Shown: in pieces, positions 4,651 to 23,987 of the stretch | Layout: each line of letters begins with the position of its first letter | Position numbering within the stretch: the first letter of the stretch is position 1 | NCBI RefSeq assembly: GCF_006546655.1 | Contig: NZ_VIAQ01000012.1 | Coordinates: 186,001 to 250,000 of the forward strand | DNA from: Methanolobus vulcani | GTDB taxonomy: Archaea; Halobacteriota; Methanosarcinia; Methanosarcinales; Methanosarcinaceae | DNA: 64,000 nucleotides | Direction of reading: 5' to 3' | Position numbers and translations under genes: made by a program | Notes under the pieces: generated by a model | Databases searched by the model: none | Told to the model about the DNA's origin: nothing | What the model saw: the letters and a program-made list of their open reading frames with translations, nothing else

Positions 4651-5166
4651 ATGTTAAGCGAAAAGATGGTAGCAGCCCTCAATGGGCAGATCAACAAAGA
4701 GATGTATTCTGCATATCTGTACATGGATATGTCAGCTCACTGTACATATGAAGGACTTGATGGTTTTGCTAACTGGTTCATGGTACAATACAATGAAGAA
4801 ATGAGCCATGCAATGAAGATCTATGACTATGTAAATGACCAGGGTGGAAAAGTCTTACTTGAAGCAATTGAAAAGCCACCTGAAAGCTTTGGAACTCCGT
4901 TAGAAATGTTTGAGGCAACACTCAATCACGAACAGTTCATCACAAAATCAATTTACGATCTTGTGACACTGGCAAACGAAGAGAAGGACTATGCTACACA
5001 AATATTCCTCCAGTGGTTCGTAACAGAACAGATTGAGGAAGAAGCAAACGACAATGAACTTATTGCAAAGCTCAAGCTCATAGGTGAAGATGGAAACGGC
5101 CTCTATATGCTTGACAAGGAACTTCTGACAAGGGTGTTCACACCACCTGCTACATCAGAGGAATAA
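4651..5166 (+). CDS. ftnA: Non-heme ferritin
   Basis: A 171-aa ferritin that oxidises Fe(II) and stores iron in a 24-mer shell. Ferroxidase ligands are visible at the expected places: E17, E50 with H53 (YNEEMSH), E94, Q127 and E130, the same pattern as bacterial FtnA. The start is preceded by CGGAGAT. It sits between the DsrE-like gene (52 bp upstream) and superoxide reductase (76 bp downstream), probably one transcript or regulon for oxygen and iron stress in a strict anaerobe. Confidence 0.93.
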   Translation: MLSEKMVAALNGQINKEMYSAYLYMDMSAHCTYEGLDGFANWFMVQYNEEMSHAMKIYDYVNDQGGKVLLEAIEKPPESFGTPLEMFEATLNHEQFITKSIYDLVTLANEEKDYATQIFLQWFVTEQIEEEANDNELIAKLKLIGEDGNGLYMLDKELLTRVFTPPATSEE

Positions 5167-5242
5167 GAACTGAAGTTTGTTGTACAAACTTAACGTCATT
5201 CAATGTTATCAAAAACACAAAATCATATAAAAGGTGAGATAA

Positions 5243-5593
5243 ATGGAATTTGAAGAAGCGCTTAAAGGAAAGGATGTTGAAGGTAAAGAGAAGCATGTCC
5301 CTGAAATAGACATTATCAGAGGACATGGACATGCAAAGGCAGACTATGTACGCGTAATTGTCGGAAAGGAAGTAAAACACCCAAACACTGTTGAGCACCA
5401 TATCTCATGGGTCGAGCTTTACGGCATCACAAAGGATGGTAAAATGGTAGACTTTGGAAGAATGAACTTCGAGCCAGTATATACCGAGCCGACTGCTTCA
5501 TTCCACATTAACAACATTAATGACTTCAAAGCCTTCTGTGCACTCGAATACTGTAACGTCCACGGCCTGTGGAAGAACTGTATTGAGGTTTAA
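5243..5593 (+). CDS. Class II superoxide reductase (neelaredoxin)
   Basis: A 116-aa enzyme that reduces superoxide to hydrogen peroxide without making oxygen. The iron site is complete: EKHVP (E16, K17, H18), H46, H52-H53 in EHHISWVE, and C104/H107 in CNVHGLW. The spacings between the later ligands (6 and 3 residues) match the P. furiosus enzyme. The N-terminal rubredoxin-like desulforedoxin domain of class I enzymes is absent. A GGTGAG ribosome-binding site precedes the ATG, and a strong hairpin terminator follows at 5620-5638. Confidence 0.93.
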   Translation: MEFEEALKGKDVEGKEKHVPEIDIIRGHGHAKADYVRVIVGKEVKHPNTVEHHISWVELYGITKDGKMVDFGRMNFEPVYTEPTASFHINNINDFKAFCALEYCNVHGLWKNCIEV

Positions 5594-5619
5594 ATACTAA
5601 AGTGAAAGAATATACATTT

Positions 5620-5638
5620 TGTGGCATCAGTAGCCACA
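5620..5638 (+). terminator. Hairpin plus T-run after superoxide reductase
   Basis: TGTGGC and GCCACA arms flank a 7-nt loop and are followed at once by TCTTTTTTATA. It lies 27 bp after the stop codon. Confidence 0.65.
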
Positions 5639-5713
5639 TCTTTTTTATACCTGTTCATTCCCTCCTTTCACTAATAACATCATGCAAATGAGTTGAAAAA
5701 AGAGGAATAAACA

Positions 5714-5815
5714 GTGATCAAAAAACTTATCGGAAAACTTGCATTCCTTGCCATTGTAGTCGGAGCAATGGCAATGATCATACTAAACTATGTAATACCT
5801 TACATGCATGCATGA
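5714..5815 (+). CDS. 33-aa single-span membrane protein
   Basis: A short ORF starting GTG with AGAGGAATAA just upstream. It encodes a basic N-terminus (IKKLIGK) followed by one hydrophobic segment (LAFLAIVVGAMAMIILNYV) and a short IPYMHA tail. The layout, positive residues then one helix, predicts an inner-membrane protein with the N-terminus inside. It lies between superoxide reductase and the convergent ahbC, 17 bp past the ahbC stop. Function is unknown; the ribosome-binding site and clean composition support a real gene. Confidence 0.55.
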   Translation: MIKKLIGKLAFLAIVVGAMAMIILNYVIPYMHA

Positions 5816-5831
5816 AAGAAAAAAAGGTTAC

Positions 5832-7031
5832 TTAAAACTCGTCGTAACCTATCTCTTCCTTGGAAAGATAACATGCAGGATCGTCAGCCCAGGTGTTACC
5901 ATAGATAGCTTCAGCTCTTACACGGAAGTTTCCGTTACAGATATCGAACCATTTGCATTTTGCACACCTATCGGCATTTTCTTTTATCAGAGGCTTGCGG
6001 TCCTTAAGTCCTGCCATGAGTTTATCACTGGCATCTCTCCAGATCTCACTGAACTTGCGCTCTCTTATATTTCCGAATGAGTAATGCCTCCAGAACTGAT
6101 CAGGATGTACTGAACCATCCCATGAGATGCAACCAAAGCCGATTCCGGTAGAATTGCCTCTGTTCATGTTCAATAGTTCAAGAACTTCTGCAGCCCTTTC
6201 AGGGTCCTCTTTCAGAAGACGCATGTAAATGTATGGACCATCACAGTGGTTATCCACAGTCAGAACTTCAGCTTTGAAGCCTTTTGCATGTAGCTCCCTT
6301 GTCTTGTCCATAAGCAGGTCAACGGTCTTGCGACTTTCCTCAAGGCTCAGGTCCTCATTAACCATTTCAGAGCCACGGCCTGAATATACCAGATGATAGA
6401 AACAGATACGAGGGACGTTTTCCCTTTCCATCAGATCAAATATTGCAGGAATATCATGTACATTATGGCGATTGATGGTAAACCTGAGTCCTACCTTGAT
6501 ACCCTCTTTCTGGCAGTTGTGCAGACCCTGAAGTGCTTTGTCAAAAGAACCTTCGATGCCACGGAACTTATCGTTTGTTTCCCTCATACCGTCAAGGGAA
6601 ATGCCTACATAAGAAAGGCCAATATCCTTGAGTTTTTTTGCCATCTCTTCAGTGATCATGGTACCGTTTGTTGAAATTACGGCCCTGATACCTTTTGAGC
6701 GTGCATAACCTGCAAGTTCAGGCAGGTCTTTCCTCATGAGAGGTTCACCGCCTGAGAAAAGTATTACAGGACAACCGAACTCAGCAAGGTCATCTATGAG
6801 AGCCTTACCTTCCTCGGTGGTCAGTTCGTTTTTGTATTCCATGTCCTTTGAATGAGCATAACAATGGACACAGCGAAGATTGCAGCGCTGGGTGACATTC
6901 CAGACTACAACGGGTTTTTTATCCTTTGAGAACTGGAGCAAATGTGATGGGAGTTTTTTAGAGTCACGCCCGTACCTGAGCGCGTCTGAGGGCTCCACAG
7001 TTCTGCAATAAAGTTTTGAAATTCCTATCAT
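5832..7031 (-). CDS. ahbC: Radical SAM 12,18-didecarboxysiroheme deacetylase AhbC
   Basis: A 399-aa radical SAM enzyme with CNLRCVHC (C50, C54, C57) for the SAM-bound [4Fe-4S] cluster, a GGEPL motif, and a C-terminal SPASM-type Cys region (CAKCKWFDIC...C). In the alternative heme pathway of methanogens and sulfate reducers, AhbC removes the C12 and C18 acetate side chains of didecarboxysiroheme, giving iron-coproporphyrin III. The N-terminus (CRTVEPSDALRYGRDSKKLP) is what I recall for AhbC rather than AhbD. hemD and cobA lie just upstream on the same strand, matching the siroheme route. AhbA, AhbB and AhbD are not in this window. Confidence 0.82.
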   Translation of the reverse strand: MIGISKLYCRTVEPSDALRYGRDSKKLPSHLLQFSKDKKPVVVWNVTQRCNLRCVHCYAHSKDMEYKNELTTEEGKALIDDLAEFGCPVILFSGGEPLMRKDLPELAGYARSKGIRAVISTNGTMITEEMAKKLKDIGLSYVGISLDGMRETNDKFRGIEGSFDKALQGLHNCQKEGIKVGLRFTINRHNVHDIPAIFDLMERENVPRICFYHLVYSGRGSEMVNEDLSLEESRKTVDLLMDKTRELHAKGFKAEVLTVDNHCDGPYIYMRLLKEDPERAAEVLELLNMNRGNSTGIGFGCISWDGSVHPDQFWRHYSFGNIRERKFSEIWRDASDKLMAGLKDRKPLIKENADRCAKCKWFDICNGNFRVRAEAIYGNTWADDPACYLSKEEIGYDEF

Positions 7032-7176: not shown

Positions 7177-7983
7177 TTAGTTCAGCATATCCAGAACTTT
7201 TTTGAGAATAGCCTCGAATGTGAATTTCCCGGGAGTCACTGAAACTTTAACACCATACTCTTCGATAGTCTGAGCAGTAGGTACACCTATAGCCGCAACA
7301 ATAGAATTGTTCATGATGTTTATCACTTCATCCTTTGAAGACTGGTCCACAGCATGTTCGAAGAAATTGCGCACCATCATAGAACTTGTGAATGCGAACA
7401 CATCAACTTCGCCTGCAAGTACCTTTGCTATGAATTCTTCCTGCCCGTCACCTTCAGGTTTTGTCAGGGTATAAACATTAGTTTCATGAATTTCAGCCCC
7501 GCAATCCTTCAGGCCTTCTATAAGAAGTGTTGAACCGTAGAAGCTTCTTGCTGTGTCAATTACCTTGCCTTTTACATCAGGACAGAGAAACTCCACAAGA
7601 CCTTCGGAACTATATACTCCGGGCATGCCAAGTACATTTATACCCATGTCGTCCAGTGCCTTGCGGGTAGTAGGACCTATGGCAATAACTTTTGTAGAAT
7701 TAAGGGCAGTAATGAATTTCTCATGCTCATCAGCAGGAATCTTATCCAGTGTGAAATCTATGCCGTTGGCACTTGTAAATATCACATAATCTGATTTTCC
7801 TGACATTACCCTTTCAACAAAGCCATCGAAGAACTCGTCCTTCATGCCCTCAAGCTCGATCATTGGAACTGCAAGGGGTTCAAATCCCATAGACTGCGCA
7901 AGTTCCACTGAATCTTTCAGGTAACGTTTGGGCCTCATTATAGCAAGTACAGGTCTTTTGGACTTTTCTGTCAAAGGTAACAC
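7177..7983 (-). CDS. hemD: Uroporphyrinogen-III synthase
   Basis: A 268-aa HemD-fold protein that cyclises hydroxymethylbilane with inversion of ring D to uroporphyrinogen III. It has two Rossmann-like halves, with VIFTSANGI (first half) and VFAFTSSMMVRNFF plus AIGVPTAQ (second half), as usual for this poorly conserved family. The GTG at 7983 is possible, but AAGGTG overlaps it and sits 5 nt before a TTG at 7974, which may be the true start. It is 3 bp downstream of cobA, so the two are almost certainly cotranscribed. Confidence 0.88.
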   Translation of the reverse strand: MLPLTEKSKRPVLAIMRPKRYLKDSVELAQSMGFEPLAVPMIELEGMKDEFFDGFVERVMSGKSDYVIFTSANGIDFTLDKIPADEHEKFITALNSTKVIAIGPTTRKALDDMGINVLGMPGVYSSEGLVEFLCPDVKGKVIDTARSFYGSTLLIEGLKDCGAEIHETNVYTLTKPEGDGQEEFIAKVLAGEVDVFAFTSSMMVRNFFEHAVDQSSKDEVINIMNNSIVAAIGVPTAQTIEEYGVKVSVTPGKFTFEAILKKVLDMLN

Positions 7984-7986
7984 CTT

Positions 7987-8754
7987 CTAATCAAAATAAT
8001 TTGAGACCTGCTCGCCAAGAATATCGTGCAGTGATACAACATTACCAATTATGGTAATTGCAGGTGCCTTTACACCTCTCTCCTTTGAGACTTCAGCGAT
8101 ATTCTCAAGGGTACCAACTGTTACACGCTGGTCAGGTCTTGTTCCCTTCTCAATAAGAGCAACCGGAGTTTTTGGGTCCTTGCCGAATTTTATAAGTTCG
8201 CCTACATTCCTGCCAAGCATTTTCACTCCCATGAAGATAACGATAGTGCCATCGAACTTTGCAAGTGTTTCCCAATCAAGGGCTGTTTCTTCTTTTGTAG
8301 GGTCTTCATGACCTGTGATGAAAGTCACCATTGATGCGTGGTCCCTGTGGGTAACAGGTATGCCTGCGTATGCAGGAACTGCAACAGCGGATGTGATACC
8401 TGGAACGACCTCAAACTCAATTCCTTCTGCAATAAGTTCCTCGGCTTCTTCTCCCCCACGACCAAACATATAAGGATCGCCACCTTTGAGGCGGAGTACG
8501 TTCTTTCCTTCCTTGGCTTTCCGGATGATAACAGCATTGATCTCATCCTGAGTGAGTGTGTGATCACCTGCATGCTTACCTGCATCGATCTTTTCAGCGC
8601 TGTCAGGAATGGAATCTATTATCGCCTTACCCGGAAGCTGATCGTATACCACGACTTCAGTCGTATCGAGTAACCTGCGTGCCTTAAGTGTCAATAATTC
8701 CGGGTCACCCGGACCTGAACCAACCAAATAGACTTTACCATATTTCTGGGCCAT
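7987..8754 (-). CDS. cobA: Uroporphyrinogen-III C-methyltransferase (SUMT)
   Basis: A 255-aa class III methyltransferase that adds two methyl groups from SAM to uroporphyrinogen III, giving precorrin-2 for siroheme, cobalamin, F430 and AhbC-route heme. Signatures: VYLVGSGPGDPELLTLKA at the N-terminus, LRLKGGDPYMFGRGGEE, and PGITSA. This is the short SUMT form without a CysG dehydrogenase/chelatase part. Its leader contains a 7-bp hairpin (8772-8790), and a TTTATAAC element near 8810 may be its TATA box. No cobalamin riboswitch is visible. Confidence 0.93.
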   Translation of the reverse strand: MAQKYGKVYLVGSGPGDPELLTLKARRLLDTTEVVVYDQLPGKAIIDSIPDSAEKIDAGKHAGDHTLTQDEINAVIIRKAKEGKNVLRLKGGDPYMFGRGGEEAEELIAEGIEFEVVPGITSAVAVPAYAGIPVTHRDHASMVTFITGHEDPTKEETALDWETLAKFDGTIVIFMGVKMLGRNVGELIKFGKDPKTPVALIEKGTRPDQRVTVGTLENIAEVSKERGVKAPAITIIGNVVSLHDILGEQVSNYFD

Positions 8755-9494: not shown

Positions 9495-10775
9495 TTACTC
9501 AAACCTTGTTCTTACAGAATCTGCATGTGCCTGCAGACCCTCTTTTTCAGCAAGAGCAATTACAGAATCTTTCAAAGTTTCAAGTCCCTGCTTGCTAATT
9601 CTCTGGATACTTGCAGACTTCATGAAATGAGCAAGGTTTAGTCCTGAGTAGATTCTTGCATAACCCGCGGTTGGCAATACGTGATTTGTACCTGATGCAT
9701 AATCTCCAACCGGGACAGGTGCGTAGTTACCCACAAATATGGAACCTGCATGTTCGATTCCTTCAAGAACTTCATCGTCGTTCTCAACCATGATCTCAAG
9801 GTGTTCAGGTGCAAATGCATTTGAAAACTCGATGCACTCATCCATCGAGTCCACTATAAGGATAGCGGCATTCGCAAGAGAAGTATTTACAATCTCTGAT
9901 CTAAGCGTTTCTTCTGCCTGTTTAAGCACCTCAGCTTTTACATCTGCGGCAAGATTCTCAGAAGTTGTTACAATAACTGATACCGCATTTGGATCATGCT
10001 CTGCCTGAGCGATCATGTCTGAAGCTGCCATCCTGGCATTACATGTTTCATCAGCTATGATAAGCACTTCACTTGGCCCGGCAGGGAAATCTATCTCAGC
10101 CATATCCCTTACCTGCATCTTTGCAGACGTTACAAAAACATTACCCGGACCAACGATCTTGTCAACCTTCATAACAGTGTCAGTACCATAGGCCATACCG
10201 GCAACTGCCTGTACACCACCGATTTTATATACATGGTCTGCTCCGGCAACTTTTGCTGCCGCAAGAGTAAGAGGATTTACTTTTCCATCCTTGCCCGGAG
10301 GAGTACACATAACCACATTCTTAACACCGGCAACTTTTGCGGGAACTATGGTCATCAAAGCTGTGGAAGGATATGATGCTCTGCCTCCCGGAACATAAGC
10401 CCCAACAGTTTCAAGGGCTGTGAACTTCTGTCCAAGTTCAATTCCCGGTGAGACTTCAATGAACCATGTCTTTTGTGGCATCTGGGCCTCATGGAACCTG
10501 CGAATGTTGCCTGCAGCAAATTCAAGATGCTTCATAAGTTCAGGATCAATGCTTGCTGCAGCCTCATCGATCTCTTCCTTTGTGACCTCAATTGCCTCAA
10601 TATCAGCACCATCGAACTTCCTGGTATATTCACGCAGGGCTGCATCGCCATTATGCTTTACATCTTCAAGGATAACTGCAACTGTATCTTCAACATTTGC
10701 AAGATCTCCGCCACCACGTCCTATGAGTTTGTTCTTTTCTTCATCGGTTAATTCGGATAGTTTCTTGTAAAGCAT
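9495..10775 (-). CDS. hisD: Histidinol dehydrogenase
   Basis: A 426-aa enzyme for the last two steps of histidine synthesis (L-histidinol to L-histidine, two NAD-dependent oxidations, zinc-dependent). Hallmarks: [45 protein letters not shown]-type core ([14 protein letters not shown]), QAEHDP, and the C-terminal [11 protein letters not shown]. The length is typical. The ATG (MLYKKLSEL) is well placed. No other his genes are adjacent, as is common in archaea. Confidence 0.96.
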
Positions 10776-11831: not shown

Positions 11832-14800
11832 TTATTTCTCAAAATCACTGAAAGTGCTCTGTTCCCTTTCAATAAGTGAACTCATTGTCCTGGATTTAAT
11901 ACCATCTTCTGAGCCAGATGGCCTTAATCCTGAACTAATAGCAAGCTCCTCAAAAAGTTTCCTGGCGGTCTTTGGACCTATCAGTTCAGATACCGTGCTG
12001 ATATCTGAATTCCTAATTGCCTGCACTGTTTTAAGTCCGCTATCATAGAGCTTGCGTGCACGCACACGACCTATTCCTCTGATACTTACAAGCTCGATAA
12101 GATCGGATGAAGCACCGTAGTGTATCCTTTTTTCCAGCAGGGCAACATGGTTGGAAATATCTTGTGACATCTCAGGAGCAATGAGTCCTGAAAGTCTTGA
12201 AGTTGCATGCATTAGCCACTCTGCAATATCGGCAAAAGCATGTACATCACCCTCACCAACATTGAATTTCTTTGTTATCTGGTCAAGGGATTTCTCATTG
12301 ATCCAGTCTTCTACCAGAAGTGCAGTTTTCACTTCAGCCATGAACCACTCATAATCAACTTCCTTTGACCTTGGAGGAATCTCTACAAACTCATCACTGC
12401 GAGCCATGATAATATCGTTGATCACTTCATAGTCACTGGATCTCATGTAGAGCTGCCTCATATCCGGTGTTTTGCAGATAAGATGCAAAAGAGTCATGTC
12501 CGTAATGTTCTCAGCTTTAGCTTTTTTCAGACCATCAACAATGTAAGCACCTGAAAGCGGATCAATGTAGAGAGTAGAGACAAGTCTTCCAAGTACTGTT
12601 GGAAGCAATGTACCCTCACCTTCAAGCATACCATGGTTTCTGAGGAAATAGAGACACTCATCCACAACATCCATGATCCCCCATGTATCGTTCTGGTGAG
12701 CGAAGAAAGTAGCTTCAATAAATTCAAGGAGACCTTCCCTTGTTGTTGCGAAGCCGTTGACAATTGTTGAAAGGATGTGAGTTCTCAGTGCATTTTCTGA
12801 ACCGAGCTTGGACCAGATATCTTCTGCGTCGGCATCAATGTAATTATCGAAAAGACCTGTCATTTCATTATATGATTTTGCGATGAGGACCGATTCACCA
12901 TAAGGATCAAGGTGCGGCCTGCCTGCACGACCTGCCATTTGCTTGTAATCCAGCACCGGAATTGGCTGCATACCATAATTCGGATCGTAACGTCTGTAAC
13001 TTCTGATAATTACCCTTCTTGCAGGAAGATTGAGTCCTGCTGCAAGGGTAGGGGTGCTGGAAATCACCTTTATCTTGTTAGCTCTGAATCCATCTTCCAC
13101 AATCCTACGGTGTGCAGAATTAAGTCCTGCATGATGGAAAGCAGTTCCATTCCTGACACACTTTGCCAGTTCATTGGCAGCTTCAGTCTCACCATTCTCT
13201 ATAATCCCCTCGACAAGTTCGTCAAGTGCTTTTCTTGTTGGTTCGTCAAGGGTCTCAGCCACTTTTGTGCCTGCCCTTTTAGCAAAAGAAACACTGTTCT
13301 TTCGGCTGCTTTCAAAAACAAGACACTGACCGCCTTCTTCCAGTGTATCCAGCACCACATTGACAGCCTCATCTTTTGCCCGGGCTTCGATGCGTTTCTG
13401 TGAGCCATGGAAATTTATATTTCCATTAAGATAGACACCTTCCTGAAGGCGTGTTGGTCTCCATTCACTGAGAACAAGTTTTCCTTTCAGCCAGTCAGCG
13501 ATCTCGTAAGCATTGCCTACTGTTGCTGAAAGAGCAATAATCTGACATCCGGGATTAAGTTTCATGAGTTTTGTTAACGTAACTTCCAGTGTAGGACCCC
13601 TGTTTGCCGAATCAAGTAAATGCACCTCATCAACCACAATTGTGGTTATGTCCTGCATCCAGGAAGTCTCATTACGTAATAGAGAGTCTGTTTTTTCTGA
13701 TGTAGCAACTATGATATCATTGAAACCTAGCCGCTCATCCTTTGATTCGAAGTCACCGGTAGAGATGCCAACTCTAACTCCTCCGGATTTTATATTGATT
13801 GATGAAAATGACCTGAATCTCTCAAATTTTTCACTTGCCAAAGCTCTTAGAGGTACTATGTAGAGAGCTTTGCCACCAGATGATATGGCTTTTAACATTG
13901 CAAGCTCTGCAAGAAGTGTTTTTCCAGACGCAGTAGGAATTGCTGCAAGCAGGTTGTTTCCATCAAGCAATCCTTTTTCGATAGCTTCCACTTGTGGTGG
14001 ATACAGTTCTTCAATTCCAGAATCTAGGTAAAATCGGAGAACTTGTTCTGGAATGTCAAGATTTGTTATATCAAATGTACCTGCAAAATGTTTAATATTC
14101 TCTTTTTTGACTGAAAATCTATTTGTTAGTTTATTGTTGCTAATTTTCTCATACTTCTCTTGTTTTATTTCAACATATGATTGTTTTTTTTGTACAGGCA
14201 CCCCATTCAATCCATCTTGCTTTTCTCGGAGGATATTATAAATTTCCTGTTCTTCTGCATACTCTTGAGTGATAAATTCAGAGAATGGATCTAGAAAAAT
14301 ATCAATCGTTATCTGCTCATTTACTTTATCTGAATATATTTGATCAATCCACTTGGTAAATCCAGAATGAGTCTGAGGTAATTTCTTTAATCCTTTCCCT
14401 TTTAAAACTTTATTTATGAAAGTTGATTTAGAGATTTCACAACCATAGTTTTTTTTTGAAATTTTATCAAAGCCTTTAGTATGAGATTTATTTGGGATAT
14501 AAAAAATAAGGTCATTGCCCATATCTAAAAATAAAGGTTTTTGTGTACAAAGAATCCATTTCCTTGCCCATTTCCAAATATACTCATAAAATACAACATC
14601 TCTTTTTAAATTGTAAGCTAAATGCAAATTAAAATTTTCCTGAAGATATGTGGCATCAAATAACCAAACCATATCTCCATAAAATAATTCCCGGGCTCTT
14701 ATATCATATTCATTTATCTTAGAGTGTTGGAGCTCTATTACCAAACCATCTTTGTTTTGTATATCAGCCCGATGTCTTTCACCATTTTTAGTGATGGTAA

Positions 14801-15050
14801 CTTCACAATATTTCTCATCAACTAATTCTTTCCAGCCTAAATGCCAATCTGTTTCTTTTCCACTAGCCCACGGATCACATTCAGCTCCCGGAGGGTGAGC
14901 AAAGTGAGGTTTCCTTTCATCACCACATCTTAGTCGTAAAGGTCTTTCATTTAGTGGGTCACAAAAAGGACAATAAAATTTAATTTGTGTTCCTTTTAAT
15001 TCAAAAGTAGCCTTTACCTTTTGACCATCAGATGTCTTTGCATAAAGCAT
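11832..15050 (-). CDS. hel308: Hel308 DNA helicase with fused N-terminal CoiA-like nuclease domain
   Basis: A 1072-aa fusion. Residues about 1-135 resemble the CoiA family: zinc-like CPFC (C27, C30) and KPHFAH, then HRADI (93-97) and VIELQHS (104-110), the restriction-endonuclease-like core. Residues 136-325 are an uncharacterised AT-rich linker domain. From about residue 328 (ITNLDIPE) a complete Hel308 follows: Walker [13 protein letters not shown] (475-478), QMAGRAGRP (705-713), winged helix, ratchet, and a C-terminal helix-hairpin-helix ([14 protein letters not shown]). Hel308 unwinds stalled replication forks. Normal Hel308 is about 730 aa, so the extra 328 residues are unusual. No in-frame start codon remains at the junction, and the N-terminal third is clearly more AT-rich. 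No ribosome-binding site precedes the ATG; it may be leaderless. Confidence 0.9.
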
Positions 15051-15208
15051 AGGTACGTAGATGGAATCGAAATTAATAATATTTTATCCCTAAAAGACGC
15101 GTAAGCATTTTTCACAATTCTATACACAAGATCGAGTGTTGGAAATTCTAATAGACTTACATAAAGTTACCCCGAATTATAAATAAAGGGTTTGTAATAA
15201 AAATGAAA

Positions 15209-15234: not shown

Positions 15235-15984
15235 TCAGTTATTTTCTTTCGCATCTGCCACATAGTCATAAAGCAAAGCTGCAATCACAGCGCCTGCAAT
15301 CGGACCAATTATATAAATTGGGAACTGCCACCAGAGATTTGACCCTCCGAGAAGGAAATCCGCAAGATACGGACCGAAAGTACGTGCAGGATTAAGGGAT
15401 GATCCGGTTATATTTCCAACTACGATAACGTCCGCAGCTACCACAAGACCGATAGCCAGTCCTGCAAAACCTGCCGGTGCTCTTTTATCCACTGCTGAAC
15501 CCATGATGGTCAGCATAAGGAAAAAGGTTGCTACTGCCTCACAGAGTATGGCCTGACCGTAACTCACACCATCAAACATTGCTGTTGCACCAAGACCCGT
15601 ATCTACCGCCCGGCTACCCAGTATCGCAACAATGGTAAAGGATGCCAGGCTTGCACCGATAAGCTGTGCTACTATGTAACCAAGCATATCCTTTGCAGGG
15701 AAGCGTCCTGTTGCCCATAATGCGATACTCACTGCAGGATTGATATGTGTGCCTGATATATGGCCGAAGGCATATATCATTGCAATTATCGCTATGGCAA
15801 AGGAAATTCCTATTGCAAACCACGCTGCGATATCAATACCCACAAAAAAGGCATTTCCCGCTATGGAATCTGAACCCTGGACTAGCAAGACAGTTGTAAC
15901 AACTGACCCTGTTCCCAAAAAGACCAGCATATAAGTTCCTATCAGTTCGGCTATGGATCTTTTTAACAGACCCTGTTCTGACAT
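15235..15984 (-). CDS. aqpM: Aquaporin / MIP-family channel
   Basis: A 249-aa integral membrane channel for water or small neutral solutes. It has six membrane spans and the two half-helix NPA motifs: INPAVSIALW (NPA 82-84) and SSLNPARTFGPYL (NPA 198-200). Both are intact, and the length matches archaeal AqpM. GGGTGATT lies 5 nt before the ATG. It is flanked by its own hairpin downstream and by one from the DUF2193 gene upstream, so it is likely monocistronic. Glycerol or gas permeability cannot be read from sequence. Confidence 0.93.
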   Translation of the reverse strand: MSEQGLLKRSIAELIGTYMLVFLGTGSVVTTVLLVQGSDSIAGNAFFVGIDIAAWFAIGISFAIAIIAMIYAFGHISGTHINPAVSIALWATGRFPAKDMLGYIVAQLIGASLASFTIVAILGSRAVDTGLGATAMFDGVSYGQAILCEAVATFFLMLTIMGSAVDKRAPAGFAGLAIGLVVAADVIVVGNITGSSLNPARTFGPYLADFLLGGSNLWWQFPIYIIGPIAGAVIAALLYDYVADAKENN

Positions 15985-19919: not shown

Positions 19920-22900
19920 TTAATTCTCCCATTCGGATACTAATGTGTCATATGCTTCTGATTTTTCATCTCTATCACCTGTTTTGTCACCAACACCTTT
20001 TGGCCCAGAGCCTACAATTGTAGCTGCATATCCACTGAATCTAAACTTAATTGGAGCATTGTACCCTATCCATAAAATATTCCCATTATTACCTCTATTA
20101 AATGGATGAGGAACACGCTCTTCCTGTCTCACATACACCTGAGCATCATGCCCAAAATATGGATTGAACATACATTCATTATCGTTATCTATTACCTCGA
20201 AGCTCTTGTACTTTCCAATAACTTCATACTCCCAGACATTCACAGTACACACCCAGTTAGGCGGAAGCACAGGCAGACCACATGGAACATATTTCATGGA
20301 CCTTTCAAGCCTCTTTTCAATATTCTCAGCAAGTTGGCCTGTCAGTTTCTCGCTTGATTCGTCCAATTTGTTTTGTAACTCGTTGTTGATGTTCTCAAAA
20401 CACTGGTCAATGGTTTCCTGGCAGAGTTCAATTGACTTACAAATACCATCTGATATTCCTATACGTAGATCTGCTTCAAGACGATAAAGAACCGCATCCA
20501 TTTCATCAGAATCTATGGTAGGATTATCATTTTGTATCTTCTGACTGATGCGATACAGAATCTCATCCTGTAATGTGTTGTCGGCAGCCATGTCCACAAT
20601 TTCCTCATCAGAAAGTGAATCAAGATAAGTTTCTGTAATTGTGATCACATCCTCTTTGCTAATCCAGGTGCTTAGAACCGGATCACTGGAAATCTCATCA
20701 GCAATGGTTCCGGGAACCTGATCCCTGATGCTACGGCTGTATTCATCCATCATTTTACTGCGGTTCTCTTCAATAAAAGAGATGTCCGTTGAAACTCCGT
20801 TCTTGACAAGTTCCGTACTGTTGACTGCAAGATCTGCAAGCAGTGAATCGATCTCCGCATTAGCATCTGAAATGCTCTGGCTCATTGACTGAGAGATCAT
20901 ATCTTTAAGTGGTTCAGACGCTTCTGAAAGCGTCCCTGCAATATCATCTCCTATACCTGTAGAGAAAACACATACATTCCTGACAGCCAGCGGATAGACC
21001 GCCTTCCCTGTTGTGTCCTCCCATTTGTACTGACTCTGGATATCGAAATCCGGGTCATGGTAGAGATAATCAGGATACTGGTCTACAACGATTGTCATGT
21101 TCTCAGTCCAGTTGTACTTGCTACCCGGCATTCCCACAACCTCAATCGTTTCGATAATACCCATTTCAGCAGCCAGGGCTGTTGATGCTTTATCCATGGC
21201 GGGGTTGTTAAAGATAACATCTGTAGACACTTTATTTTGTACAAGATCAAGAAGAGAATGTCCCTGTTCTTTCTCAAAGGATTCGTCGATGTAAGTCTCA
21301 AAGGAATCTTCTGTCTCTTTGTTCCGTTCCCTGATTTCCCTGAGCAAACGGTCATAAGCTTCATTCTTTGAGATAGCACGACATGCAGCACTGCTTGTAC
21401 TGAACTGTCCTGAATTCATGTACTGAGATTGATCGATGAAATAATCTCGTTTAGAAGATTCTTCCATTTCGTCAGCAAGGTCAAGTGAAGCCTCCTGTAT
21501 CAATGTGATTGGATTCTCCCCCAGATTTTCACCAAGCAGAAATACTTCCCTTGTAGGATTGTCAGTATTTATGGAATCGAACATGCATTCCATTTCCTGA
21601 CTCAGATTCTTGTGAAGCCATGAAGGAATGTCGCAATAGACTTTCTCATCAGAGAGGTATGCTCCATCACTGTAAGTGTTGTATCCTTTTTCAATCTCAG
21701 CCAGATTTACATACTGGTCACGATACTTATCTGCTGCATCACTACACCCAAAATCCGGTTTTGGAATTCCATCAATGATCACAGTTGTATTCCTGTAATC
21801 ATTGGAGCTTCCTGAATCGTAAATGGCATCTTCTCCGACATAACCACCCGAAGGAAGATACTGATGATACACGATGCTTATGTATTCGGTTTCTGTCTGT
21901 TCATGGGGAACTGAAATTTCGTCTGAAATAAGATAATTTGTCAATGAACCGGAAGAATCACCGTCAAAATGATTCCAACTCCCTCCTCCTTCCGGGTCAG
22001 GACTATAAGTCTTGTATGACCAGTGATATGAATAATAGATATTCCAACGTGTTTTGACCTTGAACTTAACTTTATACGTAATCAGCCAATCAAAAGAATG
22101 ATTTTCATGAGATAGATAACCATCTGTCCTTTCAATATCCACCAGATTATCGTGGCCTATGTAATCATAAGTTACATCCACGTCCTCACAAACGATATTT
22201 GTAGAAACATGCTCCACATTTACGCTATTGAAATACCATTTGTGAGAGGAGGCATCCACACTTACTTTGTGATCAAAATCGAATATATCACTAAAGCTAT
22301 AGTCAGGAGAAAGTGCACATGTATGTGAAACTGACACTGGATGATGGCTTGTCCAGGTAATGTATTTGTCTGCCTTTGATTCACCTGTTTCGTAAGAAAC
22401 CGAATCATATGTCGTTGAACCAACCCACAGACTATAAGGAACAGCAGTGTTGAAACCATCCCTGAATACCTGACCCTGTACTGTGCCACTATATACCTCA
22501 TGTGTTACATCGTGCAGCAGGTCAGGATACTCATTGCTCCACTGGTCAACATCATTGTAGACCCAGTTACTGTAAACCTCATTGGTAAAATTGGAAACCG
22601 AAACTACTATTTTTGAATTATCAGCAACCTCTTCCATGGTTATGTTAGATTCCCTCATGGACTCATTGACACCCTGTTCAACACTTATATTGAAAGTGCC
22701 GTCACTTGACAGATCATCGTATGTTGTGCTGAGATTTTTACCGGAATCGTCCTCATATGAATTCGTTCCCTTTTTGACATCCTCATAGAGCACTTTGCCG
22801 TTGTAATAAGTGGTGTATGTCAAAGCCCAGGGGTCCACAGAATCGAAAACACGTTTCTGTGTGTAAAGAGTTCCGCAGTTCACGGAAGCGGACAATGAAG

Positions 22901-23987
22901 GATCCGTCACGATGTTCAGGGGACCATTCAGATAATGCTGCCACGGACCATAGATGAAAGTCCTGATGTTAGTGGCACCAAGCACAATATCCGATGTCAC
23001 TCCACCATTCAGCTCATTTTCATACTCATTTACCAGTTCTTCAAGCAGAGGTTCTCTGGAAGTGATAAGAGCACTCACATTCATGGAACCGGCTCTTGTA
23101 CTATTGTCTGTGAGGCCTACAATGGAATAATTGAGGTTTTCAACGGACATTGTATAATAAATAGGATATCCCGAATCATCTGTCGGTGACCTGCTTATTT
23201 CTCTTTTTAATGTTCCGTTGATCTTACCGATCCTTATCTGTAAAGGAGATACATCAGGATTAATATTGATTGCATAATTATTGAATGTGTGCTGATTCTC
23301 CTGATATGAGGTTTCAATATATTCATTGAAATATTCAGCCGTGATGTCTTTCAGGGGACTGGTGCCAACGTGGAACCAGTTAACTGCTTTCTCCTCGCCA
23401 TCATACTCTAAAACAAGATATGCATATCCGTATTCTGCATTTTCAGGTATTGTTATTTTTTCTTCAAATTCAGAAGATGTCCAGAACGAATGAGTTTCAT
23501 CGTAGGATATGGACTTGTAAACTGTACCGGAACCACTTTTAAGTATCAGGGTTCTTGGTTTGTCGGAAAAAAGGCATGATATGGCTTCGAATACATCTGA
23601 AGGAAGAGTTACATCTACCGTAATAATGTCTCCGGGTTCAGTATTCCTGTTATCCGGCTCAATGGAAAAACCATCCGATTCCATTGATTCGTATACAAGG
23701 TCTTCGGGTTTTATGACAGGATGCTCTCCCTGCCATGCGAGGGCTTCCATTCCCGCATAATTAAGACAGCGAGCGAGATCTGATGACGCAAATTCAACTG
23801 CCGTCTTTTCCATATCTGTAGTATCCGTATTGTGTATCACTTCTGCAAGTGCATAGTCTGTTTTTGTAAGGTATATCGATGCTATTACGGCAAAAAGCAG
23901 AATGAATATACCGATCACCGCAAACGGAATATAGGCCCGGGTGTCCTGGCTAAAGCTTCGTTTTTCGTTTTTGGGATCGGATATCAT
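19920..23987 (-). CDS. Large membrane-anchored surface protein, resembling haloarchaeal DUF7286
   Basis: A 1355-aa protein with one N-terminal membrane helix (about residues 20-43, AYIPFAVIGIFILLFAVIAS) after a short charged tail, then a long extracytoplasmic region. There are Tyr/Trp/Ser-rich beta regions in the first half. A helical, Asp/Glu-rich segment (about 960-1210) has repeats such as SMSQSISDANAEIDSLLADL and is likely coiled coil. The C-terminus is a beta-rich domain (LPVLPPNWVCTVNVWEYEV). From memory, this order matches haloarchaeal DUF7286, which occurs with pilus-like gene sets; I could not run a search. It is cotranscribed with the short anchored protein downstream and divergent from hisS and four pilin-like genes. 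Confidence 0.6.
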   Translation of the reverse strand: MISDPKNEKRSFSQDTRAYIPFAVIGIFILLFAVIASIYLTKTDYALAEVIHNTDTTDMEKTAVEFASSDLARCLNYAGMEALAWQGEHPVIKPEDLVYESMESDGFSIEPDNRNTEPGDIITVDVTLPSDVFEAISCLFSDKPRTLILKSGSGTVYKSISYDETHSFWTSSEFEEKITIPENAEYGYAYLVLEYDGEEKAVNWFHVGTSPLKDITAEYFNEYIETSYQENQHTFNNYAININPDVSPLQIRIGKINGTLKREISRSPTDDSGYPIYYTMSVENLNYSIVGLTDNSTRAGSMNVSALITSREPLLEELVNEYENELNGGVTSDIVLGATNIRTFIYGPWQHYLNGPLNIVTDPSLSASVNCGTLYTQKRVFDSVDPWALTYTTYYNGKVLYEDVKKGTNSYEDDSGKNLSTTYDDLSSDGTFNISVEQGVNESMRESNITMEEVADNSKIVVSVSNFTNEVYSNWVYNDVDQWSNEYPDLLHDVTHEVYSGTVQGQVFRDGFNTAVPYSLWVGSTTYDSVSYETGESKADKYITWTSHHPVSVSHTCALSPDYSFSDIFDFDHKVSVDASSHKWYFNSVNVEHVSTNIVCEDVDVTYDYIGHDNLVDIERTDGYLSHENHSFDWLITYKVKFKVKTRWNIYYSYHWSYKTYSPDPEGGGSWNHFDGDSSGSLTNYLISDEISVPHEQTETEYISIVYHQYLPSGGYVGEDAIYDSGSSNDYRNTTVIIDGIPKPDFGCSDAADKYRDQYVNLAEIEKGYNTYSDGAYLSDEKVYCDIPSWLHKNLSQEMECMFDSINTDNPTREVFLLGENLGENPITLIQEASLDLADEMEESSKRDYFIDQSQYMNSGQFSTSSAACRAISKNEAYDRLLREIRERNKETEDSFETYIDESFEKEQGHSLLDLVQNKVSTDVIFNNPAMDKASTALAAEMGIIETIEVVGMPGSKYNWTENMTIVVDQYPDYLYHDPDFDIQSQYKWEDTTGKAVYPLAVRNVCVFSTGIGDDIAGTLSEASEPLKDMISQSMSQSISDANAEIDSLLADLAVNSTELVKNGVSTDISFIEENRSKMMDEYSRSIRDQVPGTIADEISSDPVLSTWISKEDVITITETYLDSLSDEEIVDMAADNTLQDEILYRISQKIQNDNPTIDSDEMDAVLYRLEADLRIGISDGICKSIELCQETIDQCFENINNELQNKLDESSEKLTGQLAENIEKRLERSMKYVPCGLPVLPPNWVCTVNVWEYEVIGKYKSFEVIDNDNECMFNPYFGHDAQVYVRQEERVPHPFNRGNNGNILWIGYNAPIKFRFSGYAATIVGSGPKGVGDKTGDRDEKSEAYDTLVSEWEN

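Follow-up and report, generated by a model that had tools for sequence, protein, structure and literature searches.

The fused gene and its locus

The window, a 64,000-nucleotide stretch of Methanolobus DNA, contains hel308 in the order aquaporin - hel308 - hisD, and the gene is read as a single uninterrupted frame of 1072 aa with 0 internal stops (Table 1). Residues 327–1070 of its product matched NCBIfam NF002654 (PRK02362), a Hel308-type equivalog, at E 0 and 1084 bits (cut-off 887), and the score with the stricter Hel308 model NF040935 was 544.8 bits, under its cut-off of 1200. Complete Hel308 domains, with domain 4 and the HhH, were recognised by Pfam and all SF2 motifs are intact, in agreement with an earlier note on this DNA that regarded the helicase moiety as complete. 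The fused gene was the sole full Hel308 detected in the window genome, the remaining matches being a stand-alone CoiA and other helicases.

Table 1 Features of the fused gene and its surroundings (coordinates are positions in the window)
Feature	Residues	Coordinates	Strand	Basis or remark
Fused CoiA-like / Hel308 gene	1-1072	11832..15050	-	1072 aa; ORF and domain matches
CoiA_N domain with CxxC...HFAH zinc-type motif	17-59	14874..15002	-	Pfam PF25164 above cut-off
Predicted PD-(D/E)XK nuclease core	66-135	14646..14855	-	predicted fold, structure matches, invariant residues
Candidate catalytic residues	D96, E106, Q108	14763-14765, 14733-14735, 14727-14729	-	PD-EXQ motif
C-terminal part of CoiA-family protein	136-222	14385..14645	-	aligns with bacterial plasmid CoiA to residue 213 and with archaeal stand-alone CoiA
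Linker	223-326	14073..14384	-	low model confidence; long helix predicted
Hel308 helicase	327-1072	11835..14072	-	motifs Q, I, II, III, IVa, V, VI all intact
DNA missing at this site in unfused Methanolobus relatives		14061..15190		about 1.13 kb in place of about 90-130 bp; blastn against G005, G007, G020, G025
Aquaporin-type gene, upstream synteny anchor		15235..15984	-	named by eye; same neighbour in G005, G007, G020, G025
hisD-type gene, downstream synteny anchor		9495..10775	-	named by eye; adjoins hel308 also in Methanolobus genomes and G117

The N-terminal part had been assigned to CoiA on the basis of CPFC, KPHFAH, HRADI and VIELQHS, all of which are present. The CoiA_N domain (PF25164) was detected at E 9.5e-8 (31.9 bits, cut-off 26.3), and tblastn aligned residues 1–185 with plasmid genes whose annotation reads 'competence protein CoiA family protein' (best E 1e-20). 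An HMM built only from stand-alone CoiA-like proteins, archaeal and bacterial, gave E 1e-75 for the window extension; where it gave low-E matches to decoy ORFs, these too were CoiA-like or fused genes. HMMs of this kind also retrieved the N termini of all eight fusions described below, at E 1e-14 or better. PF06054 (CoiA_nuc), the model that the earlier note had named, gave no match to the window protein; it scored 35.3 bits (cut-off 20.3) on the homologous relative G108s, with weak matches in G112s, G000s and G024f. Solved structures searched by sequence returned nothing meaningful. These comparisons at the sequence level confirmed that the stretch up to about residue 222 belongs to the CoiA family, and that the window gene consists of a complete Hel308 preceded by this CoiA-family N-terminal domain.

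Four Methanolobus genomes (G005, G007, G020 and G025) have an unfused hel308 of 750 aa at the same aquaporin - hel308 - hisD locus. The flanks of the window insertion are 84–87% identical to them at the DNA level on both sides, and identity is lost only across ~14061–15190. The GC content is 0.315 in the extension versus 0.431 in the helicase part, which, together with the lack of a counterpart for this DNA in the unfused relatives, bears out the earlier proposal that AT-rich acquired DNA was captured in frame upstream of hel308. Nor is there a separate stop and start between the two parts, as had been noted: the canonical Hel308 start Met is gone, F-D-I-T-N standing where the relatives read M-K-I-E-S, and no ATG, GTG or TTG is found at that position. 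The nearest in-frame start codons are TTG and GTG 44–47 codons upstream and, downstream, a codon 26 codons past the canonical start, beyond the Q-motif. Thus, Hel308 with its Q-motif could be produced only together with the extension or from the GTG or TTG in the linker.

Parts of the first ~300 bp of hel308 (13772–14072) diverge more from the relatives than the relatives do from one another, hinting at donor DNA or at adaptation at this junction. Donor DNA bringing in a 5′ piece of hel308 was rejected as a general mechanism, since the junction in G117 lacks such divergence. The neighbourhood of the fused gene is housekeeping. Elsewhere in the window, 19920–23987 encodes a 1355-aa protein with a DUF7286 C-terminal domain.

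Recurrence and origins of the fusion

CoiA profile searches of 186 Methanosarcinales genomes detected 24 CoiA-like genes, eight of which were fused, in every case to Hel308 and with CoiA at the N terminus; the unfused genes are stand-alone frames of ~250–490 aa. The window fusion is not unique, which the earlier note had not recognised. Native hel308 loci carry the fusions of, among others, G000 (the window genome), G024, G117, G097 and G087, while in G002 and G017 the fusion sits in an accessory Hel308 paralog (G002p and G017p); that of G122 was detected via the CoiA profile. The SF2 motifs, including IVa (F/YHHAGL), were found in all eight by regular expression. CoiA searches of a 393-genome phylum sample revealed no fusion outside Methanosarcinales. 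Hel308 searches of 60 relatives and, among the matches listed, of the order returned frames far longer than the usual 730–790 aa, which on reading out had CoiA-like N termini, except for those of G034 and G035, whose length is due to an insert within Hel308, and a PNP fusion in G017. The count of CoiA fusions in the order is that given by the CoiA profiles, and the Hel308 list covers other N-terminal domains among the matches listed. Since the same architecture recurs in eight genomes, including the single-contig assemblies of G024 and G002, an assembly or frame artefact is very unlikely, to the point of being negligible, the loci of G122 and G117 on short contigs (14 and 8 kb) being less certain than those of G024 or G002.

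Several other Hel308 variants were observed in the survey. G024 has, in addition to its fusion, a second and unfused hel308 copy (contig C1, L039:3094-5313). Plasmid NC_019972 of Methanomethylovorans hollandica (G142, contig C1, L074:2740-4998) encodes an unfused Hel308 paralog of the accessory lineage, whose relatives G002p and G017p are CoiA-fused. In G017 (contig C7, L043:2888-6118), a Hel308-like helicase with 27–29% identity to Hel308 carries a C-terminal PNP_UDP_1 phosphorylase domain (E 6e-18), which gave a PADLOC 'Effector' cross-hit, and this protein is possibly another accessory helicase effector. A divergent full-length paralog in G001 (contig C1, L042:3752-6031) has no recognisable Walker A or DExH and is apparently a dead helicase retained as an open frame. 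The Hel308 proteins of two other genera of the family (G034 and G122; L058:3162-5960 and L056:1-2925) contain an extra stretch before domain 4, which in G034 is long, low-complexity and charged.

In a 54-row helicase tree built by a quick method, the eight fused rows require seven changes, all seven forced by well-supported branches, although such counts are blind to gain versus loss. Every fused row adjoins an unfused relative, except the G002p/G017p pair. AU tests rejected clades of G000 with G024 (p 4e-5), of G097 with G087 (p 2e-10) and of all six native-locus fusions (p 3e-5). The CoiA tree contains two well-separated types, each with stand-alone relatives: a bacterial-like type A, comprising G000, G024, the stand-alone G016, the stand-alone copy of the window genome and plasmid CoiA, and an archaeal type B, comprising the other fusions. 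With moderate support, the G024 extension groups with the stand-alone G016 and that of G122 with the stand-alone G118. G097 and G087 group together as sisters by their CoiA parts but not by their helicases, suggesting that modules may also move between hel308 loci.

The boundaries of the extensions are clean. G117 and its unfused relative G115 are 94–95% identical on both flanks, the two sequences aligning again from the old ATG onwards; G087 has retained the stretch around its original hel308 start, and its CoiA frame comes after this stretch. The old Hel308 Met is gone in seven of the eight fusions, G117 being the one that keeps it. In all eight, the GC content of the extension (0.30–0.38) is below that of the helicase (0.37–0.56). 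These low GC values and clean insertion boundaries favour gains over losses. A single ancestral fusion, inherited and then lost many times by clean deletion, would agree with the direction-blind parsimony counts and with the sister relationship of the G097 and G087 CoiA parts, but each loss would need to restore an identical Met-K-I start and the intergenic DNA. The separation of the two CoiA types, the extension GC that stays low whatever the GC of the host gene, and the grouping of the G024 and G122 extensions with stand-alone proteins also argue against it, and we consider ancestral fusion distinctly improbable. Judged from these trees and alignments, the same joining apparently happened several separate times in Methanosarcinales.

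The predicted nuclease core

A first structure model of residues 1–329 had a pLDDT of 56, and a trimmed model of residues 1–222 was therefore used, with a pLDDT of 74 overall and mostly 84–91 in the core. The modelled core has the order alpha-beta-beta-beta-alpha-beta, with D96 and E106 placed on adjacent strands. Its closest folds are mainly PD-(D/E)XK nucleases, namely Bax1 (in complex with XPB helicase), Can2, I-Bth0305I, XisH, Hjc and XPF, with Z up to 6.4 (all below 8) and an rmsd of 3.7 over 101 residues. The top Foldseek match of the modelled extension was SSO0001 (E 0.035), which we take to be a Cas4-type nuclease, and weak DdmD-type matches were also obtained. Because the Z-scores are modest, a nuclease fold of the extension is likely rather than proven. 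D96, E106 and Q108 are invariant across the type-A alignment and match the PD-EXQ active-site variant proposed for CoiA (PMC1189080), so that D96 and E106, singled out in the earlier note, probably belong to the active site. In the type-B domains (G117, G097, G087, G122, G002 and G017), the Q of PD-EXQ is missing and the sequence there is E-[IV]-x.

Purifying selection on the extension was detected in the one testable pair, G002p/G017p, with a dN/dS of 0.30 versus 0.10 in the helicase. Between G000 and G024, dN is 0.38 in the extension versus 0.09 in the helicase; dN/dS of the window extension against G024 was dropped as selection evidence, as silent sites look saturated. The extension might be a passenger, either dead or neutral, or the cell might also make Hel308 by itself from an internal start, for which the TTG and GTG upstream of the canonical start in the window and the old ATG in G117 could serve. 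The presence of nuclease motifs in all eight fusions, the dN/dS of the testable pair and the loss of the old Met in the other seven argue against this explanation, which we regard as unlikely.

Relation to known systems and possible function

The Hel308 part shares SF2 motifs, domain 4, HhH and the equivalog match with Hel308/Hjm, the archaeal HELQ-type Ski2-like helicases; in contrast to the window fusion, the canonical protein begins with the helicase and lacks a nuclease domain. The extension shares with the CoiA family (PF25164, PF06054; COG4469) the zinc-type CxxC..HFAH, the PD-EXQ site and the C-terminal stretch to residue 213. CoiA, however, stands alone and has an established role in streptococcal competence, whereas here it is joined to a helicase in an archaeon. 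Helicase-nuclease fusions such as Hef are already known as a kind. Hef and XPF-type proteins and Bax1-XPB likewise combine an SF2 motor with a PD-(D/E)XK-fold nuclease on branched DNA, but they belong to another helicase subfamily and another nuclease family; the nuclease is N-terminal in CoiA-Hel308, and the whole is not homologous. DdmD, a plasmid-defence protein that carries an SF2 helicase and a PD-(D/E)XK nuclease in one chain and works with an Argonaute partner, is comparable by analogy only, as the families differ. The Hel308-Hjc complex also unites Hel308 with a nuclease of the PD-(D/E)XK superfamily (PMC10484726), but it is non-covalent, and Hjc, a Holliday-junction resolvase, has the fold alone in common with the CoiA-like domain. 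In the open-access papers searched, we found none combining CoiA and Hel308 and nothing relevant on CoiA-like fused proteins, in line with the earlier note, which knew of no characterised protein of this design. The CoiA-Hel308 pairing and its repeated origin thus appear to be undescribed.

The genomic contexts of CoiA-like genes are mixed. McrBC adjoins the G017 fusion, a stand-alone CoiA of the window genome lies between two Cas1 genes (contig C8, L049:948-2150, 5117-6130, 7410-8237; E 4e-70 and 4e-46), and a Nocardioides plasmid CoiA has an OLD-type ATPase, UvrD and McrC as neighbours. Many of the archaeal stand-alone CoiA genes inspected sit among ordinary genes. In G118 (contig C3, L087:3475-6718), a stand-alone CoiA-like gene follows RadA-like and primase-large-subunit-like genes identified by eye, the RadA-like gene being two genes away. 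PADLOC found no system specific to CoiA-Hel308, giving only the helicase cross-hits HamB, BrxH and SngC over the Hel308 part, and no match to the stand-alone CoiA proteins. No relative was detected in viral contigs scanned with the type-A CoiA profile, and phage records gave no match. The link to competence and imported DNA drawn in the earlier note found no echo in these results: nothing points there, some relatives adjoin defence genes, and an anti-phage selection has yielded a protein with a CoiA domain (PMC9519451). This finding, together with the scattered occurrence, the foreign composition, the rapid divergence of the extension and some of the neighbours, suggests a defence role, which, given the housekeeping window locus and the ordinary neighbours of many stand-alone CoiA genes, draws on a minority of contexts.

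That CoiA-like nucleases work with Hel308 is strongly supported by the repeated joining of this pair. The fusion could serve host DNA repair rather than defence, the nuclease helping Hel308 to resolve stalled forks or recombination intermediates and the extension being gained and lost by drift. Archaeal Hel308 is reported to unwind forks and D-loops 3′-5′, to suppress recombination and to bind Hjc, which acts at Holliday junctions (PMC10484726), and pneumococcal CoiA is required for transformation, which otherwise falls to 0.001–0.01 of wild type (PMC3661451). The likeness to the action of Hjc, Hef and Bax1-XPB, the native housekeeping locus of the window gene and the RadA-like gene near the G118 CoiA are also consistent with repair. 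On the other hand, accessory immunity would account better for the scattered occurrence, the foreign composition, the rapid divergence of the extension and its repeated acquisition, and we judge a role confined to repair to be somewhat unlikely.

Because CoiA-like modules of both types were repeatedly acquired from accessory genes that are AT-rich and evolve fast, destruction of foreign DNA is the benefit we consider most likely. We slightly favour the reading that in-frame capture of a CoiA-like PD-(D/E)XK nuclease at the 5′ end of the resident hel308 turned the Hel308 made in the cell into a single-chain helicase-nuclease against foreign DNA, with host repair kept. The Hel308 part would recognise branched DNA such as forks and D-loops and translocate 3′-5′, and the N-terminal nuclease, held on a linker of ~100 residues, would cut a strand at or near the branch, where the motor loads. 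The targets would be foreign DNA, probably that of invading elements, during its replication or recombination. More broadly, we propose only tentatively that CoiA-Hel308 may be an undescribed family of archaeal immune (or fork-surveillance) effectors, in which mobile CoiA-like nucleases, captured in frame at the start codon of a resident replication-fork helicase, have on several occasions turned it into a nuclease against foreign replication or recombination intermediates. The fusion offers a way to test what CoiA does biochemically, and our data suggest that a housekeeping repair helicase can repeatedly be enlisted to carry accessory nucleases.
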